A DNA stretch of 40,283 bases. Origin: Terriglobia bacterium (lineage in GTDB: Bacteria > Acidobacteriota > Terriglobia > Terriglobales > Acidobacteriaceae). The stretch covers positions 1 through 40,283 of the forward strand of contig JAIQGF010000022.1 of assembly GCA_020072845.1 (NCBI GenBank). Direction: 5' to 3'. The notes under the pieces were generated by a model. The model did no database searches. It had not been told where the DNA came from and saw only the letters and a program-made list of their open reading frames with translations. The position numbers and the translations under genes were made by a program. Positions 2,701 to 39,108 of the stretch are shown in pieces; the first letter of the stretch is position 1; each line of letters opens with the position of its first letter.

Positions 2701-2934
2701 GTCTTCAGTCGTCAGTCTTCAGTCTTCAGGCGTAAGACTTTGGAGAGTTGATCGTCAGTCGTCAGTCGTCAGTCGTCAGTCGTCAGTCTTCAGTCGTCGG
2801 TCTTCAGTCGTCAGTCTTCAGTCGTCAGTCGCGTCAGTCGTCAGTCTTCAGTCTTCAGTCTCCGGGCGTCAGTCTTCGGGCGTCAGGCGTCAGGCTTCAG
2901 TCGTCAGGCGTCGGGCGTCAGGCTTGGGTCGCTA
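2701..2934. repeat. heptamer tandem array, left of the S23/IVP-like gene
   Basis: About 30 copies of a 7-base unit, consensus GTCKTCA with variants GGCGTCA, GTCTTCG and GGCTTCA, run from 2701 to 2934. A degenerate stretch at 2736-2757 and a 2-base phase slip near 2828-2836 interrupt it. The array starts 29 bases upstream of the mltG start and ends 41 bases before the four-helix-bundle gene. The reverse complement of the same heptamer forms the array at 3336-3437, so the two arrays are inverted around that gene. It does not look like CRISPR: there are no spacers and the unit is too short. The array translates openly in several frames, but these are not credible proteins. Confidence 0.9.
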
Positions 2935-2975
2935 AGGCTACAATTTCCGGTCTCAACTTGTCGTGGAGGTGAAAC

Positions 2976-3338
2976 ATGAGCGGATCTTATGGTGATCTTA
3001 AAGTTTGGCAAAAAGCCATGGAACTCGTTTATCGGGTTTACGAGGCTACCCAGTCCTTTCCAAAACATGAACTCTATGGGCTGGTAAGCCAGTTGCGGCG
3101 GGCGGCAGTTTCCATACCAAGCAACATTGCCGAGGGCAAGGGGCGATCCGGTGATCCGGAGATGATCGTGTTCTTTTGCCACGCCCGCGGCTCAATTCAC
3201 GAAGTCGAGACGCAGGTCCTAATTTCAAAGCACCTCAAGTACCTGGATGAGGTGCAATCGCACGAACTGCTGGAGCGCGCGGGTGAAGTTGCACGTATGT
3301 TGAATGGCCTCATGACGGCACTGACCGTCACCGCCTGA
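2976..3338 (+). CDS. four helix bundle protein, S23/IVP-like
   Basis: The 120-residue protein matches the small four-helix-bundle family first noticed in 23S rRNA intervening sequences. The signatures are DLKVWQKAMELVYRVYEAT near the N-terminus, then LVSQLRRAAVSIPSNIAEGKGR, and a C-terminal helix with the family's LLERAGEVARMLNGLM pattern. Avd of diversity-generating retroelements shares this fold, but no reverse transcriptase or variable repeat is nearby. The biochemical role of the family is not established. A strong ribosome site (GGAGGTG, 2965-2971) precedes the ATG. The gene lies between ruvX and mltG on the opposite strand, framed by inverted heptamer arrays, and its stop codon TGA is the first three bases of the right array. 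Confidence 0.9.
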   Translation: MSGSYGDLKVWQKAMELVYRVYEATQSFPKHELYGLVSQLRRAAVSIPSNIAEGKGRSGDPEMIVFFCHARGSIHEVETQVLISKHLKYLDEVQSHELLERAGEVARMLNGLMTALTVTA

Positions 3339-3437
3339 CGACTGATGCCTGAGGACTGAAGACTGACGACTGACGACTGAAGACTGACGACTGAAGACTG
3401 AAGACTGGCTGAAGACTGAAGACCGACGCCTGACGAC
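3336..3437. repeat. heptamer tandem array, right of the S23/IVP-like gene
   Basis: About 14 copies of TGACGAC/TGAAGAC, the reverse complement of the left array's GTCGTCA/GTCTTCA, with one 4-base partial unit at 3406-3409. The array fills exactly the gap between two stop codons. Its first base is the first base of the four-helix-bundle stop (TGA 3336-3338), and its last base is the last base of the minus-strand ruvX stop (3439-3437). Left and right arrays could pair over about 100 bases in single-stranded DNA or RNA, with the gene as the loop. Confidence 0.9.
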
Positions 3438-3913
3438 TAGGTTTTGGAGTGTGCGTCGAGGTAGGACTGGAGGATGAGCACGGCGGCCATGCGATCCACG
3501 GCGGCGGCACGCTTGGCAATGCTGAGTTCCATTTCGCGGAGCAAGCGATTGGCCTGAACCGAGGTCAGGCGCTCATCCCACAGGTGCACCGGCAAGGAGA
3601 AGCGCTGGCGGAGTTCCTCGGCAAAGGCCGCGACCTTTTCCGATTGCCGGCCCTCGGCGCCGCTCATGCGCAACGGGTACCCGACGACGAGTTCGCAGAC
3701 ATCGTGGTCGAGAATGGCGCGTTCGAGAAGGCCGAAGTCGGTGCGCTTGTTCTTGCGGCGAACGGTTGCCAGGCCTTGGGCGGTGATGCCGAGCGGGTCG
3801 GAAACGGCCAAGCCGATGGTTTTGGACCCGACATCGAGGCCGAGAATGCGGCGGTGCGGGGAGTGCGCAGATTGGTCCGGAACGGAAGAGGTGGGATGCT
3901 GTTGACCGGACAC
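3437..3913 (-). CDS. ruvX: Holliday junction resolvase-like RuvX/YqgF
   Basis: The 158-residue protein has the RNase-H-like YqgF fold: ILGLDVGSKTIGLAVSD near residue 24 (first catalytic Asp), VVGYPLRMSG, LWDERLTSVQANR (acidic residue plus Arg) and VDRMAAVLILQSYLD (last catalytic Asp). The family acts in 16S rRNA 5' maturation and/or Holliday-junction processing. The start taken is GTG at 3913. A TATAAT-like box on the same strand (3925-3920) lies only about 7 bases upstream, so the mRNA could be almost leaderless or the true start could lie slightly inside. The N-terminal 22 residues are a non-conserved Ser/Pro/His-rich tail, so either is acceptable. The stop codon overlaps the heptamer array. 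Confidence 0.93.
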   Translation of the reverse strand: MSGQQHPTSSVPDQSAHSPHRRILGLDVGSKTIGLAVSDPLGITAQGLATVRRKNKRTDFGLLERAILDHDVCELVVGYPLRMSGAEGRQSEKVAAFAEELRQRFSLPVHLWDERLTSVQANRLLREMELSIAKRAAAVDRMAAVLILQSYLDAHSKT

Positions 3914-16613: not shown

Positions 16614-17030
16614 ATGTTCGACGACATCACTCTCTACGGACGCGACGACGAGATGGACGAATTTGGCGAGGCCGGCTCCTACGGCGAGAACCTGGAAGAG
16701 GACTTCGAGGAAGAAGAGGAAGAGGAAGAAGAACCGGCGGGCGCCATAACCCCGGCCCCCGGCGGCGTTGGCGTCCCGACGGCCGGCGCTCCCACCGCGG
16801 GTGGAGGCGGCGGTGAGGCTGGCGGCGCGCCCAAGAAAGCGGCCGCCAAGAAAGCCGCAGCCAAGAAGAAGCCGGCGGCGCGCAAGAAGCCGGCTGCCAA
16901 GAAAGCCGCGGCCAGGAAGAAACCGGCGGCGCGCAAAAAGCCGGCCGCCAAGAAGAAAGGCGCGGCGCGCAAGAAGGGCGGCGCCAAGAAGAAGGGCGGC
17001 ACCAAGAAGAAAGGCGGGCGGCGCCGCTAG
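16614..17030 (+). CDS. histone-H1-like Lys/Ala-rich DNA-binding protein with acidic head
   Basis: The 138-residue protein is strongly bipolar. Residues 1-42 are acidic (DDEMDEFGEAGSY, then a run of about 14 Glu with few other residues), residues 43-72 are a Gly/Ala/Pro linker, and residues 73-138 are a basic tail of KKAAAKK, ARKKPAAKK and KKGGAKK repeats ending KGGRRR. The tail resembles histone H1 C-termini and bacterial H1-like proteins (AlgP/HctB type), which compact DNA. The acidic head is unusual and could mask the tail or bind other proteins. The ribosome site AGGAGGAAAA is very strong. A terminator lies at 17164-17189. The role is inferred from composition only. Confidence 0.8.
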   Translation: MFDDITLYGRDDEMDEFGEAGSYGENLEEDFEEEEEEEEEPAGAITPAPGGVGVPTAGAPTAGGGGGEAGGAPKKAAAKKAAAKKKPAARKKPAAKKAAARKKPAARKKPAAKKKGAARKKGGAKKKGGTKKKGGRRR

Positions 17031-20805: not shown

Positions 20806-23800
20806 ATGACTTCGAGAATCCGCCGCCTCGCGCGGCTTTTTTCTTGCCTGCTGATGTTCGGCATGGCCGCTTACGCCGTCGAGCCCGCGAAGACCGTCGT
20901 GTCCGACACGATCTATCGCGCTGACGGCTCGCCCGCTTCCGGCACGATGGTGATTTCGTGGCCCGCTTTCGTATCCGCCGATGGCAAGCCGGTCGCCGCC
21001 GGCTCCAAGACGGTAAAGATCGGCGCCACTGGCGCGATCAGCATCCCTTTGGTGCCGACGCAGGGCGCCACGCCTTCCGGCACGTACTACAAGGTGGTGC
21101 TCAGCCTGGATGATGGCGCCAGTTCGCAGGAGTACTGGACCGTGCCCACGCTCTCGCCGACCTCGATCGCGGCCATCCGCTCCGCGGTGGTACCGGCGAC
21201 GGTGGCCATGCAGGTGGTCTCGCGTGAGTACGTGGACGGCGCCGTCGCCAACACCGTGCACAAGACCGGCGACGAGACCGTCGCCGGCCTTAAGACCTTC
21301 GACAGCTCTCCCCTGGTGCCCTCCCCGTCGGCGCCCACGGCGGCAGCCAACAAAGACTACGTTGACGTCAGCGTTGCCGCCGGCGGTTTCAATCCCGGCG
21401 CCCTGGCGCTCAACCGGGGCGGCACCGGGCAGACCTCGTGGACACCGGCGCGCTGCGTCCGCGTGGCCAACAATGGCTCCAGCCTGGAATCGGCGCCCGC
21501 CGACTGCGGTATCGCCACCAATTCCGACATGGTGGATGGTATGCACGCCTCCGCCTTCCAGACCGCAATGACCAACGCCGCCACCTTGTCCAAGATTGCG
21601 GAGAGCGGCGGCAATCCGCTGTGGAATGGAAGTGCGTGGCCGGGTGGTGACGCCAGCAATTCCGACATGGTGGATGGCCAGCACGCCAGCGCCTTCCAGT
21701 CGGCGATGGCCAACGCCGCCACCCTGTCCAAGATCGCCGAGAGCGGCGGCAATCCGCTGTGGAATGGAAGCCCGTGGCCGGGTGGTGGCGGATCGGGAAA
21801 CGCCACCCAGATCCAGGGCAAGGCGGTGGATGTGCCTGACACGGCTCGGCAATTTGAGGTGTATGACGGGGCAACAGGGTTCAAAAAGTGGCAGGATCCG
21901 GTGGTCCGCATGAATCGCGATTGCGGCATCGTCGGAACCGGGGATGAAACCGCAGCGCTCAATACCTGCATCGCCAATCTGCCGAACTATACCGGCGTCC
22001 TGCAGTGCGACAAGCCGGGCATGGTGATCCACTCCACCGGTGTGGTGGTGCGCGACAAGGTGGGCATCCGCATTGAGACAGCGGGCGGGGGGCACACGCT
22101 GAACAATGCCTGCCAATTGATCAATACGAGTGTGTCGACTGGCGGAACATTCATCGACGTGGAACGCACGCGTGATTCGGTGATCTTTAAGGGCTTTCAG
22201 ATTTATGCCGGAAATGCGGACATCGGTTTCCAGACCGGGCAGACCGGCAGCGGCACGAACATCGCCACCAGCGACTCGTTCGAGGAAATCATCCTCAACA
22301 ACAGCAACGGGAGATCAACCTTTATCGGCTTCATGATTGGCGATAGCACGGCGAACAACAGCGACGAGATGAAGTTCAACCACGTTTCGGTCAGTAGCAG
22401 CGGCTGCACCAAATGCGGCACCGCATTCAAGAGCGTACTCACCAACGTGTACGGCACCGAATTCCGCGACATCCATCTTTACAACATGGCGGTGGGATTC
22501 GACTGGACCAACAACGCCAGCGTGGACAAAGTGAACGCCACATCCATTGGCCTGCTCTACAAGCTCCAGGGCAACGGTCTTACCTTCCATGTCCAGCACG
22601 AAGATATTGAGATGGCCGACCAGATATTGTCGGCTTCCAACGGCGGGGGCACGTTTGTCGAGGAGAATGGGCGCGTCATCCTGAATACGCCGACATCTGG
22701 TGGAACAACCGGAACCTCCGGACATCCGGCATGGGACAACTCTTCCGGCGGCAGTCTCAAGATTAGAAATGTGCACACTGGTTTCTACGGGACGCTGTTG
22801 AAGGGAAGTTCCTTGAGTTGGGCTGATGTCGATTTCTATGATCCTGGGATCGTATCCTATGGGGCTGGAATCGGCGCCCCGTCCTTCAACACGCTGAATT
22901 TCCTGAACAACAACGCGTTTCTGTCCGGGGTGGCGGGCAGTAACAGCACCATCTGGGTCGGTCGTGGGTTTCTTGACGAAAATGGAATGACGGTTCCGGG
23001 GATCGGGATGCAGCAGACCACCAGTGTCAACGGTCTGCGCGTCAACTTCACTCCGTGCGCTCGCGGAAACGTCTGCTTCAACGAAGGGCAAGTCGAACTG
23101 ACCGGCGTTCATTCCATCTTCAACGTCCCTGCGATCAGTTACACCGGGACGGCCGGTTCGACGGCACGGTACTACGCCGTGGTCGCCTGCGATGACACCA
23201 GTTGCGCGGCAGGGCATCGGTCGATTCCGACGGCTTCCGTGAGCAAGAGCAATACACAAGCGACACTAGATGGCAGCAATTACATCACGTTGACCTGGAC
23301 GCCGGCCCTGAATGTGAATAAGTACGGCATCCTTCAACAGTTTGGCTCGCCTGACACCTGGAATCTCCTGATGTCGAATATCTCCTGTGCGACGAACCCT
23401 TGTACCGTAAACATTACGACCGATAGCAGCACCGCCACGTCCGGTTATCCCTCAGACAATGAGACGGGCGGGGTAATCCTGCGCGGCGCCATCAAGATGG
23501 GTAAATCGTCCACCCAAACGGCAGCACTTGATCTTACCTACGCGACCGTCACTCCGCCTTCGGGCACCATCACGGGGTTAGATGCCGATAAGGTGGACGG
23601 CAAGCATGCCGCCGATTTCCTGGCGGCGACTACCCAACTCCCGCTCACCAAGACCGCTGTGGCGCATAAGTGGCTGGCATCGTACGATGCGACTACTGGC
23701 GCGTATACCCAAACTCAGCCCGATTACTCTGATCTTACGGGCACGCCTGCACTGGCGACGGTGGCGGCCACCGGGGCATACGCGGACCTCACCGGCAAGC

Positions 23801-32204: not shown

Positions 32205-32633
32205 ATGTCACTCAGCAGCCTGCATGTGCACTTCGTGTTCGGCACGAAGCATCGTCAGCCGATGATCACACCTGAGCTGCGCCCGCGCTTGCACGCATAC
32301 CTCGGCGGGATCGCGCGGGAACTGAAAGCGAAGGCGGTCATCGTCAATGGCACCGCCGATCATGTGCATATGCTCGTGACGATTCCGGCGAAACTTTCCG
32401 TGTCGGATGCAGCCCGTGTTTTGAAAGCAAATTCTTCCCGATGGGCCGGCCCTGATTTCGGCTGGCAGACTGGGTACGCCGCGTTTACCGTCAGCACGTC
32501 GAACATGCCCGATGTAGTTGCGTACATCCGTGACCAGGAGCAGCACCACCAGACGCGGTCCTTCGAGGACGAACTCATAGCGCTCCTGGAAAAGCACGGC
32601 GTGTCGTACGATCCGGCGTACCTGTGGAATTGA
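32205..32633 (+). CDS. REP-associated tyrosine transposase / IS200-like Y1 transposase
   Basis: The 142-residue protein is a Y1 HUH nuclease of the IS200/RAYT group. It has LHVHFVFGTKHRQPMI at the start, the metal-binding HUH motif in TADHVHMLVTIP, and the catalytic Tyr in VAYIRDQEQHHQ. It cuts and joins single-stranded DNA at hairpins. Inverted REP-like palindromes on both sides are what such enzymes recognise. The ATG at 32205 has a GAAAGAG site. It lies between the kinase cassette and the portal gene. The length is normal, with nothing missing. Confidence 0.88.
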   Translation: MSLSSLHVHFVFGTKHRQPMITPELRPRLHAYLGGIARELKAKAVIVNGTADHVHMLVTIPAKLSVSDAARVLKANSSRWAGPDFGWQTGYAAFTVSTSNMPDVVAYIRDQEQHHQTRSFEDELIALLEKHGVSYDPAYLWN

Positions 32634-34061: not shown

Positions 34062-34691
34062 ATGAATATCGAACTGCAATCCATGGCCATCGACCTGCCG
34101 CCTATTGCGGCGCACCCCAACCGCGCGCCTTTTCGCGGCGTGCTCACCCTGGTGGACACGCCGTCGGACCGCGCGCCCTCGGGCGCGCGCGGACATCGCG
34201 TCGTGCTCACCCGCGCCGCCGCCGAACAGGCGCTGCCCTCGCTGCTCGGCATGGCGCTCGACTACACGCCCGCGCTCGACCGCCACGACACCCGCCACAA
34301 GGTCGGGATCATTACGGAAGCAAATGTTGTCAGTGGCCAGTGGTCAGTGGCCAGTGGTCAGCCAAAACCAAGGAATGGCCACCGGTCACTAGCCACTGAC
34401 CACTTGCGTGCAAGCGCGATTGAAATCGCAGGTTATCTCTACGCCCGCGACTTCCCCGACGTCATGCGCGAGTTGCGAGAACAATGTGGCCCGGGTCTCC
34501 GACCCGGGATCGCGGGCGAGGGCGCCCGCGCCACATGGCACGCGCTCGGCATGTCGTACGAGATCACCGACGCCCGCATTGACGACCTGCGCGCCGCCAT
34601 CTGGACGGTCAGCGAGTGCACCTTCACCGGCGCCGCCATCCTGCGCCGCGACAAAGCGGCGTACCGCGATACGTGGATCGAACTGCTTTGA
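34062..34691 (+). CDS. putative prohead protease with two in-frame repeat insertions
   Basis: The 209-residue protein resembles capsid maturation proteases: FRGVLTLVDTPSDR, ALDYTPALDRHDTRHKVGII with a candidate His, GYLYARDFPDVMRELRE, LGMSYEITDARIDDL with a candidate Ser, and FTGAAILRRDKAAY. Between the conserved blocks two stretches do not fit. VVSGQWSVASGQ and the following residues come from a heptamer repeat (about 34325-34410), and CGPGLRPGIAGEGAR from a 51-base palindromic element (34485-34535, exactly 17 codons). Both keep the frame. The family call is by motif pattern and position between portal and capsid. Confidence 0.72.
   Translation: MNIELQSMAIDLPPIAAHPNRAPFRGVLTLVDTPSDRAPSGARGHRVVLTRAAAEQALPSLLGMALDYTPALDRHDTRHKVGIITEANVVSGQWSVASGQPKPRNGHRSLATDHLRASAIEIAGYLYARDFPDVMRELREQCGPGLRPGIAGEGARATWHALGMSYEITDARIDDLRAAIWTVSECTFTGAAILRRDKAAYRDTWIELL
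34325..34410. repeat. heptamer repeat inverted pair inside the prohead protease gene
   Basis: The left arm has GTCAGTG, GCCAGTG, GTCAGTG, GCCAGTG, GTCAGCC. The right arm has GGCCACC, GGTCACTA, GCCACTG, ACCACTT. The arms are inverted around a central AAAACCAAGGAA. It is translated in frame with the protease. Confidence 0.85.
34485..34535. repeat. 51-base palindromic element inside the prohead protease gene
   Basis: The element is bounded by TGTGGC and GCCACA. Two inner hairpins lie in tandem: CCGGGTC/GACCCGG, then GCGGGCG/CGCCCGC. The 51-base length is 17 codons, so the host frame is unbroken. Confidence 0.85.
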
Positions 34692-34768
34692 AGCAGTCGC
34701 GAGTCGTTGGTCGTTAGCCGTTCGCAACACGGCCAACGACCAACGACGAACGACTAACGACTAACGAC
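34692..34768. repeat. heptamer inverted pair in the protease/scaffold gap
   Basis: GTCGTTG, GTCGTTA and GCCGTTC on the left face ACGACCA, ACGACGA, ACGACTA and ACGACTA on the right across a short loop (GCAACACGGCC). The repeat ends directly before the AGGAG ribosome site of the next gene. Confidence 0.85.
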
Positions 34769-35207: not shown

Positions 35208-35277
35208 CGTCGTTGGTCGTTGGTCGTTGGTCGATGGCTCTATCGGCCGCGGCGGCCATCGACCATCGACCATCGAC
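35208..35277. repeat. heptamer inverted pair in the scaffold/capsid gap
   Basis: GTCGTTG repeats three times, then GTCGATG GC. After a GC-rich loop comes GCCATCGAC followed by CATCGAC twice. The arms can pair over about 14 bases, and the left arm extends into the wider 7-base array. Confidence 0.85.
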
Positions 35278-36292: not shown

Positions 36293-36375
36293 GTCGTCAG
36301 TCGTCAGTCTCCAGTCGCCAGGAATTCCGGCGGCTGGCCCTGACGACTGGCGACCGAAGACTGGCGACTACTGAC
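36293..36375. repeat. heptamer inverted pair filling the capsid/connector gap
   Basis: GTCGTCA, GTCGTCA, GTCTCCA and GTCGCCA (36293-36320), then GGAATTCC at the centre, then TGACGAC, TGGCGAC, CGAAGAC, TGGCGAC and TACTGAC, which ends at the base before the connector ATG (36376). The unit is the same as in the arrays around the S23/IVP-like gene 33 kb away. It leaves no room for a normal ribosome site. Confidence 0.9.
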
Positions 36376-36998: not shown

Positions 36999-37089
36999 CC
37001 AGTCTTCAGGCTTCAGTCGTCAGTCTTCAGGGCAAGGCATCAGGCCCGGCAGCCTGACGACTGAAGACTGAAGACTGAAGACTGAAGAC
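36999..37089. repeat. heptamer inverted pair in the gap after the connector
   Basis: GTCTTCA, GGCTTCA, GTCGTCA and GTCTTCA on the left, then GGCAAGGCATCAGG, CCCGGCAGCC, then TGACGAC and four TGAAGAC in a row, ending just before the next gene. Confidence 0.9.
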
Positions 37090-37096
37090 TCACATC

Positions 37097-39026: not shown

Positions 39027-39108
39027 AGTCTTCAGCCGCCAGTCTTCGGCCGTCAGGAGAATCTGCCTGCGGCTGAAGCTGCCGGCTGAAGACTGACGAC
39101 TGAAGACT
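39027..39108. repeat. heptamer inverted pair in the tail tube/tail protein gap
   Basis: GTCTTCA, GCCGCCA, GTCTTCG and GCCGTCA face TGAAGAC, TGACGAC and TGAAGAC across a GC-rich centre. It fills nearly all of the 88-base gap between the two genes. Confidence 0.85.

Follow-up and report, generated by a model that had tools for sequence, protein, structure and literature searches.

An IVP gene in the loop of a heptamer stem

The closest described counterparts of the element reported here are the intervening sequences (IVSs) of 23S rRNA genes in Coxiella and Leptospira, in which an open reading frame (ORF) of the S23p/IVP family lies in a stem loop (PMC4990558). In Coxiella, the IVS is excised by RNase III and tandem heptamers stand directly upstream of the ORF (PMC4990558). 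We describe a related arrangement at positions 2701-3437 of a 40,283-nucleotide stretch of DNA from a Terriglobia bacterium of the Acidobacteriaceae (contig JAIQGF010000022.1 of GenBank assembly GCA_020072845.1), a stretch that we call the window. Here the stem consists of two inverted arrays of a short unit, mostly of 7 nt, and the loop is occupied by an IVP gene. Unlike the rRNA IVS, this element lies outside rRNA between the protein genes mltG and ruvX, both of its arms are tandem arrays, and several copies with differing units occur per genome. It recurs, with differing repeat words, at most of the related genes examined, which suggests that a kind of genetic element bounded by repeats has been overlooked. 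The best reading, to which we give about an even chance of being correct, is that of a stem-loop element akin to the 23S rRNA IVS but located between protein genes. The window is contig C22 of a draft genome of 4.23 Mb in 27 contigs, designated G000; three congeners are designated G001 to G003, further genomes G010, G028, and G031, and individual loci carry L numbers.

The IVP gene (2976-3338, + strand) encodes a protein of 120 amino acids predicted to form a four-helix bundle, and a ribosome-binding site, GGAGGT (2965-2970, +), stands five bases ahead of its ATG at 2976. The protein matches TIGR02436 and belongs to PF05635 (23S_rRNA_IVP; E = 2.2e-38, 131.2 bits against a cut-off of 33.8), residues 7-111 aligning with profile positions 2-106 of 106. 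Both neighbors, mltG (1637-2671) and ruvX (3437-3913), are on the - strand, which agrees with a preliminary description of this DNA that had noted a four-helix gene with a strong ribosome site on the strand opposite to its neighbors. The main left arm is a tandem GTCKTCA-type array (2752-2923, +) whose G/T-rich strand enters the gene, and an outer part of 4 GTCKTCA units on the mltG side (2701-2729, +) can be aligned to degenerate heptads of the G001-G003 spacers. The right arm, the reverse-complement array (3335-3438, -), overlaps the IVP stop and reaches the ruvX stop codon (3437-3439), where the preliminary description had also placed its end.

Tandem Repeats Finder reported 7-mer arrays at 2700-2907 (29.3 copies, 77% matches) and 3335-3438 (15.3 copies, 80% matches). 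The arrays are real, and since exact units number 17 for GTCKTCA (+ strand, 2701-2906) and 11 for TGAMGAC (3336-3437), the earlier counts of about 30 and about 14 units include degenerate ones. Three exact GTCKTCA units in a row were matched 72 times in the whole genome, overlapping matches counted, and the reversed pattern 0 times; these motif counts and a shuffled-sequence control rule out chance or low complexity as the origin of the arrays. RNA folding of the + strand of 2701-3437 predicts a long hairpin (z = -10.6 relative to 20 shuffled sequences) with the IVP gene as an ORF in the loop of the complementary stem. IVP is the sole gene identified between the window arms, and no transposase was found there.

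REP/REPIN-RAYT systems consist of one gene within inverted repeats together with many dispersed inverted pairs that lack a gene. The present case resembles them in having both a gene within inverted repeats and scattered gene-less inverted pairs, but a small helical protein rather than a Y1 transposase stands between the repeats, and these are tandem heptamers whose unit changes from locus to locus. The terminal inverted repeats of insertion sequences and miniature inverted-repeat transposable elements also have a counterpart here, in the form of tandem arrays, but without a transposase and without near-identical copies at different sites. Intergenic tandem heptamers, including inverted pairs, are described from Xanthomonas and Nostoc (GGGAATC and GGGGA(T/C)T), with 70 convergent inverted pairs in X. 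campestris; they differ in that they are generally not found with mobile elements (PMC4692102). The TAACTGA repeats of Beggiatoaceae and cyanobacteria are likewise plentiful intergenic heptamer arrays, but in the BOGUAY genome they are direct rather than inverted, with 169 direct sets and one inverted (PMC4679880). The text of PMC4692102 has no match for "23S" or "four helix," and that of PMC4679880 none for "four helix" or "S23." Among the open-access literature matches listed, only the Coxiella rRNA IVS joins an IVP gene with heptamers.

The sole PDB relative of the window protein by sequence (E <= 0.01) is 2gsc, XCC0516 (E = 1.2e-22), which by its name comes from X. campestris. The S23p structure from X. 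campestris is a homopentamer of four-helix bundles, and S23/IVP proteins are widespread and were without known function as of 2016 (PMC4990558).

Paired arms around IVP genes in this genome and other bacteria

G000 has 10 IVP matches, and the flanks of all 10 were inspected. By eye, each of the nine genes with both flanks is preceded by an array and followed by the reverse complement of that array, and eight of these nine loci exceed the numeric threshold for arm pairing described below. The units are locus-specific: GTGGCCA/GTGGTCA, GGTTTTA/G, GGTTATC, GTCKTCA (the window), AGTTTC (six bases), GTTAGTT, AGCTCTC, GATGGTC/GATGGCC, and GATTGTC, so that GTCKTCA is one family among many. In the AGTTTC element, an adjoining second set of arms encloses a copy of the gene's first codons. 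The tenth gene, L017, is cut by the contig end and was excluded from the pairing score; the unit of its downstream array is similar to that of L015, AGCTCTC.

For the numeric comparison, the downstream flank of each IVP gene was reverse-complemented and aligned with the 350 bases upstream. Searches that kept the best-scoring IVP matches, not a random draw, supplied the loci; 148 ORF hits in 135 loci yielded 128 full-length genes, one per locus, 127 of them with long enough flanks. Own arm pairs reached a median score of 40, as against 19 for mismatched pairs, and 85 of the 127 loci scored above 34, the 99% quantile of mismatched pairs; the own partner ranked first in 77. The arrangement recurs across bacterial groups, with scores above 34 in 8/9 loci of G000, 10/12 of the congeners, 19/28 of the family, and 48/78 of the named records, which span Acidobacteria, planctomycetes, Clostridia, Bacteroidetes, Chloroflexi, and more. 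The close IVP matches among these named loci come from a Candidatus Korobacter, other Acidobacteria, planctomycetes, and others. By comparison, 6 of 321 other G000 genes in a 440-kb sample reached 34, two of the six being Y1 transposase genes. Because the rough gene caller missed the window IVP gene and shortened the other IVP gene, this 321-gene set serves as a control only.

Period and polarity were analyzed in the 105 of 128 arms that scored at least 30. The best period was 7 in 88 of them and 8 in 12, and the upstream arm was more than half G+T in 87, below half in 16, and at half in 2, the bias being weaker in the family group (17/24). A one-motif logo of the unit was tried and set aside as weak (1.02 bits against a letter-shuffled mean of 0.65 and maximum of 0.83); the strand bias is clearer.

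Carriage as phage or plasmid cargo was rejected as an explanation: IVP had no match in 50,697 phage records, was matched in 25 of 72,556 plasmid records, and occurred at 11 viral-contig loci, whose flanks were outside the scoring. Eight of the 25 plasmid loci were read, all cyanobacterial, and all eight have paired arms (scores 38-63); at L392 and L397 another locus's arm scored above their own, and L390 and L391 are near-identical (97%). On cyanobacterial plasmids, IVP genes with heptamer arms were seen between cas6 and cas4 (L395, 989-1357; L394, 992-1351), and one plasmid IVP gene stands between two ribonucleotide reductase genes. Trichormus variabilis ATCC 29413 is among the cyanobacteria with a plasmid-borne IVP gene.

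Hairpins without a gene and the same sites in related genomes

The 440-kb sample of G000 contains 103 period-7 arrays, compared with 2 in one Markov-shuffled copy; period 6 gave 23, period 8 gave 26, and periods 4, 5, 9, 10, and 11 gave 0-11. Of the 103, 68 are largely intergenic according to the rough gene caller. Arrays 10-100 bases apart in four genomes form 30 inverted pairs versus 2 direct ones. Of 23 inverted pairs in G000, 12 were assignable to an IVP unit, every one of them in the order of IVP arms; these represent 10 distinct places, one left arm pairing with three right arms, and the other 11 pairs are unassigned. Such passive pairs share the polarity of the IVP elements: the strand entering the hairpin is G+T-rich in 55 and not in 14 of the 69 pairs found for 174 arrays (105 arrays being unpaired), while other inverted repeats gave 11 versus 18.

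Arrays away from IVP genes were also compared with the IVP units of their own genome and of three other genomes, a match being an array within one mismatch of a unit. Units were picked by script from 9/10 loci in G000, 9/10 fetched loci in G028, 5/8 in G010, and 6/6 in G031 (11, 9, and 8 IVP matches being listed in G028, G010, and G031), and the array lists used here and for the densities below were unfiltered for coding sequence. Resident units fit best in all four genomes, per unit too: 29/74 arrays in G000 versus 15, 9, and 8 with the other genomes' units, a count lowered by the script's misreading of the long window array; 16/25 in G028 versus 9, 7, and 7; 3/9 in G010 versus 1, 1, and 1; and 11/13 in G031 versus 6, 8, and 7. 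Out of 300 draws of letter-shuffled units, 4 did as well in G000, 0 in G028, 24 in G010, and 0 in G031, so that chance could account for the G010 result. With arm strings chosen by hand, that of L241 being inexact, an earlier run had given 37/74, 14/25, 3/9, and 12/13 in G000, G028, G010, and G031.

Across 25 genomes of the family, sampled at 8-440 kb each, IVP number and array density increase together (Spearman 0.56, p = 0.004). The 15 IVP-bearing genomes contain 133 arrays in 1,665,283 bases, and the 10 zero-IVP genomes contain 2 arrays in 751,600 bases, one of them from G040, a genome 53% complete; with G040 set aside, nine zero-IVP genomes gave 1 period-7 array in 736,600 bases. Array density tracks the number of Y1 transposases equally well (rho 0.57), and a Y1 (RAYT) transposase of the REP type could on that ground be the mover of the heptamer hairpins, with the IVP gene as its passenger. 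G000 indeed has 9 Y1 matches, one of them in the window at 32211-32537, yet the flanks of the six Y1 genes read contain no period-7 arrays, and five of the six have long inverted repeats of another kind (L371 having a short weak match only), which leads us to consider this explanation very improbable. The window Y1 gene has GC-rich inverted repeats of its own, with an arm score of 78.

A reverse transcriptase partner was considered because of the kinship of IVP with Avd of diversity-generating retroelements, seen in a weak match of the window protein to PF22296 (bAvd; 26 bits, below the cut-off of 40). Unlike those retroelements, no reverse transcriptase lies beside IVP, and the reverse transcriptase count does not track array density (rho 0.22, not significant), so this candidate was dropped. 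RVT_1 had no match in G028 or G010 and one short match in G000, on contig C1.

At ruvX-mltG, the gene is absent in all three congeners, whose spacers measure 160, 160, and 141 nt against 765 in G000, and on the mltG side those spacers align with degenerate heptads. The array there must therefore either predate or have outlived the gene, and the insertion point cannot be fixed. The preliminary description had seen an insertion into an old gene pair and called for empty sites in relatives; the lack of a counterpart gene in the congeners supports that view, and the precise insertion boundary that it expected was not found. At trpE-trpG, G000 has a full element, and G001 has an internally deleted remnant made up of the left arm, the 3' end of IVP, and the right arm; G002 has another short repeat, and in G003 trpE and trpG are on separate contigs. 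The prfA site has an IVP gene in G000, G001, and G002, with the unit GTCGATG in G000 and GTCGTTG in G001 and G002, and in G003 a 171-nt stretch resembling, by eye, a decayed element. At the L014 site, G002 is empty (a 26-base spacer), and G001 has a heptamer hairpin of another unit without IVP. G003 there has another small open frame (L400, C94 6690-7235), which by eye probably encodes a signal peptide.

These sites bear on whether the hairpins are instead resident intergenic structures of other origin in whose loops IVP genes settle, the arms belonging to the host site as with IVSs in loops of rRNA helices. Such a history would explain the different units among IVP copies, the degenerate heptads at ruvX-mltG in congeners without the gene, the G001 hairpin without a gene at the L014 site, and why hairpins outnumber IVP genes and have unlike loops. 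However, the G001 remnant at trpE-trpG, in which both arms and the IVP 3' end are kept, indicates that gene loss also leaves hairpins, and the single array in nine zero-IVP genomes indicates that period-7 arrays do not abound where the gene is absent. We consider settlement in resident hairpins rather unlikely on balance.

The three distant inverted pairs of the GTCKTCA family named in the preliminary description are real. The pair at 36293-36375 has AGGCTTC-type units in both arms in G001 and G002; at about 37000-37090, the congener site has wide arms of another kind; and the pair at 39027-39108 has a similar loop in G001 and G002. The window also holds a GTGGCCA-family pair at 34329-34400, which has the unit of the trpE-trpG element L009 and an extra insert in G002; a GTCGTTG pair at 34703-34768 (site 34729), with an 8-mer GATCGGGT-type pair there in G001 and G002; and a pair of mixed GTCGTTG and GTCGATG units at 35209-35277, with a CACAGAG-type pair in G001 and G002. 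GTCGTTG and GTCGATG are the units of the prfA-site IVP in different congeners. L327 and L334 are other-unit inverted pairs at sites 34729 and 35209, where G000 has heptamer pairs. Altogether a pair is also present in G001/G002 at five of seven passive sites (34329, 34729, 35209, 36293, and 39027), and site 33937 has none. Over eight sites (3 IVP and 5 hairpin sites, with 33937 and 37000 left out), 14 of 20 comparisons show the two arms of a locus to be more alike than arms of different species, and there are orthologous elements in which both arms have switched unit jointly. That the arms might trap genes more widely was considered and set aside; two other wide pairs in G031 seem, by eye, to enclose ordinary operon genes.

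Pairs that persist in congeners, often with other units, might be expected if the hairpins were selected RNA structures, such as terminators or structures for mRNA processing or stability, that change by slippage and compensation while IVP is a housekeeping RNA-binding protein merely lying between them. Selection on the protein would fit as well. Judged from substitution rates, purifying selection acts on orthologous IVP genes within the genus, a point that counts toward the favored reading too: four ortholog pairs of the topA-site and prfA-site genes gave ratios of nonsynonymous to synonymous substitution (dN/dS) of 0.05, 0.04, 0.17, and 0.11 by NG86, at dS values of 1.30, 1.31, 0.24, and 0.37, and of 0.06, 0.05, 0.34, and 0.16 by YN00, the other ortholog pairs having saturated dS. 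A host function of this kind nevertheless leaves unexplained why 85 of 127 IVP loci but only 6 of 321 other genes have paired arms, as well as the presence and absence of the gene among congeners, and we regard it as improbable.

Upkeep and spread of the arrays

If the element is a stem-loop related to the 23S rRNA IVS, its arrays may lengthen by replication slippage, and fold-back template switching may copy one arm onto the other. Correction of this fold-back kind is known for imperfect palindromes. We propose that fold-back copying between the arms would keep them complementary, with units that are locus-specific and change in both arms together. Cutting of the stem in RNA, perhaps by RNase III, would allow insertion into operons to be tolerated, as excision by this enzyme does for the IVS in 23S rRNA (PMC4990558), and loss of the gene would leave a passive hairpin. 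Most speculatively, the IVP oligomer might bind its own heptad strands and promote upkeep or spread of the array.

A number of observations weigh against the favored reading. Among the IVP loci, 42 of 127 lie below the arm threshold, G028 taken alone has no G+T polarity bias (5 versus 6), and the greater likeness of arms within a locus does not hold in 6 of 20 comparisons, four of them G001 versus G002. Eight of the 15 IVP-bearing genomes have no array, seven of these being 40-kb samples; array density in IVP-bearing and zero-IVP genomes differs at p = 0.07 (Mann-Whitney); and because IVP number tracks Y1 number (rho 0.78), the co-occurrence of arrays with IVP is confounded, neither IVP nor Y1 having a significant partial correlation with array density. 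At ruvX-mltG, no precise insertion boundary or target duplication was found, the boundary being lost in the degenerate heptads. No movement was caught: target duplications were not found, and there are no near-identical IVP copies in G000, where eight proteins aligned to the window protein at 36-61% identity and the most alike pair listed reaches 63%. The purifying selection concerns other IVP genes, since the window IVP gene has no ortholog among the loci read. In Coxiella, the authors conclude that S23p is probably not produced and that the ORF is in decay (PMC4990558), a warning not to presume that the protein has a role in every case; cutting by RNase III is taken over from the rRNA example, and binding of IVP to heptad strands, a natural guess, is a proposal only.

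The passive hairpins raise a further difficulty. Their loops are unalike by eye, and tblastn for IVP remnants in the samples returned seven weak hits outside two known genes, the best at E = 0.003 and none a clear remnant, so that most of them are not visibly deletion products. Deletion derivatives were for this reason not borne out as their visible source, and the earlier view of the hairpins as passive derivatives of an autonomous gene keeps in its favor the shared polarity and the one deleted copy with both arms. The candidate mobile or self-spreading element of the preliminary description is thus supported in part: the co-occurrence check that it called for leans in its favor, array density rising with IVP number, but is confounded with Y1 number, and the lack of near-identical copies speaks against it.

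A bolder possibility, which we put forward tentatively and consider doubtful, is a new class of element in which a nonenzymatic IVP oligomer would recognize period-7 G/T-rich single strands and template or guide growth on both sides, each lineage having its own heptamer word and seeding passive pairs, with the rRNA IVS as a special case that landed in 23S rRNA. Irrespective of this, the arrangement recurring around S23/IVP genes across bacterial groups is a direct lead to what IVP proteins bind. It also offers a common account of rRNA intervening sequences, the over-abundant intergenic heptamers of some bacteria (PMC4692102), and arms that change in step, and if the protein acts on the repeats, the IVP genes would form a family responsible for maintaining or spreading short tandem repeats.

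Other repeats were seen beside these. A dispersed repeat of ~90 bases at L016 (3010-3102), unrelated to the heptamers, has several dozen matches listed, most in G000 and G002. Within the window, two copies of a 138-base unit (89% matches) lie inside a long open reading frame at 21513-21787, and 16823-17017 consists of overlapping tandem repeats of 15-51 bases whose unit, if translated, would be rich in lysine and alanine, as in a histone H1-type tail.
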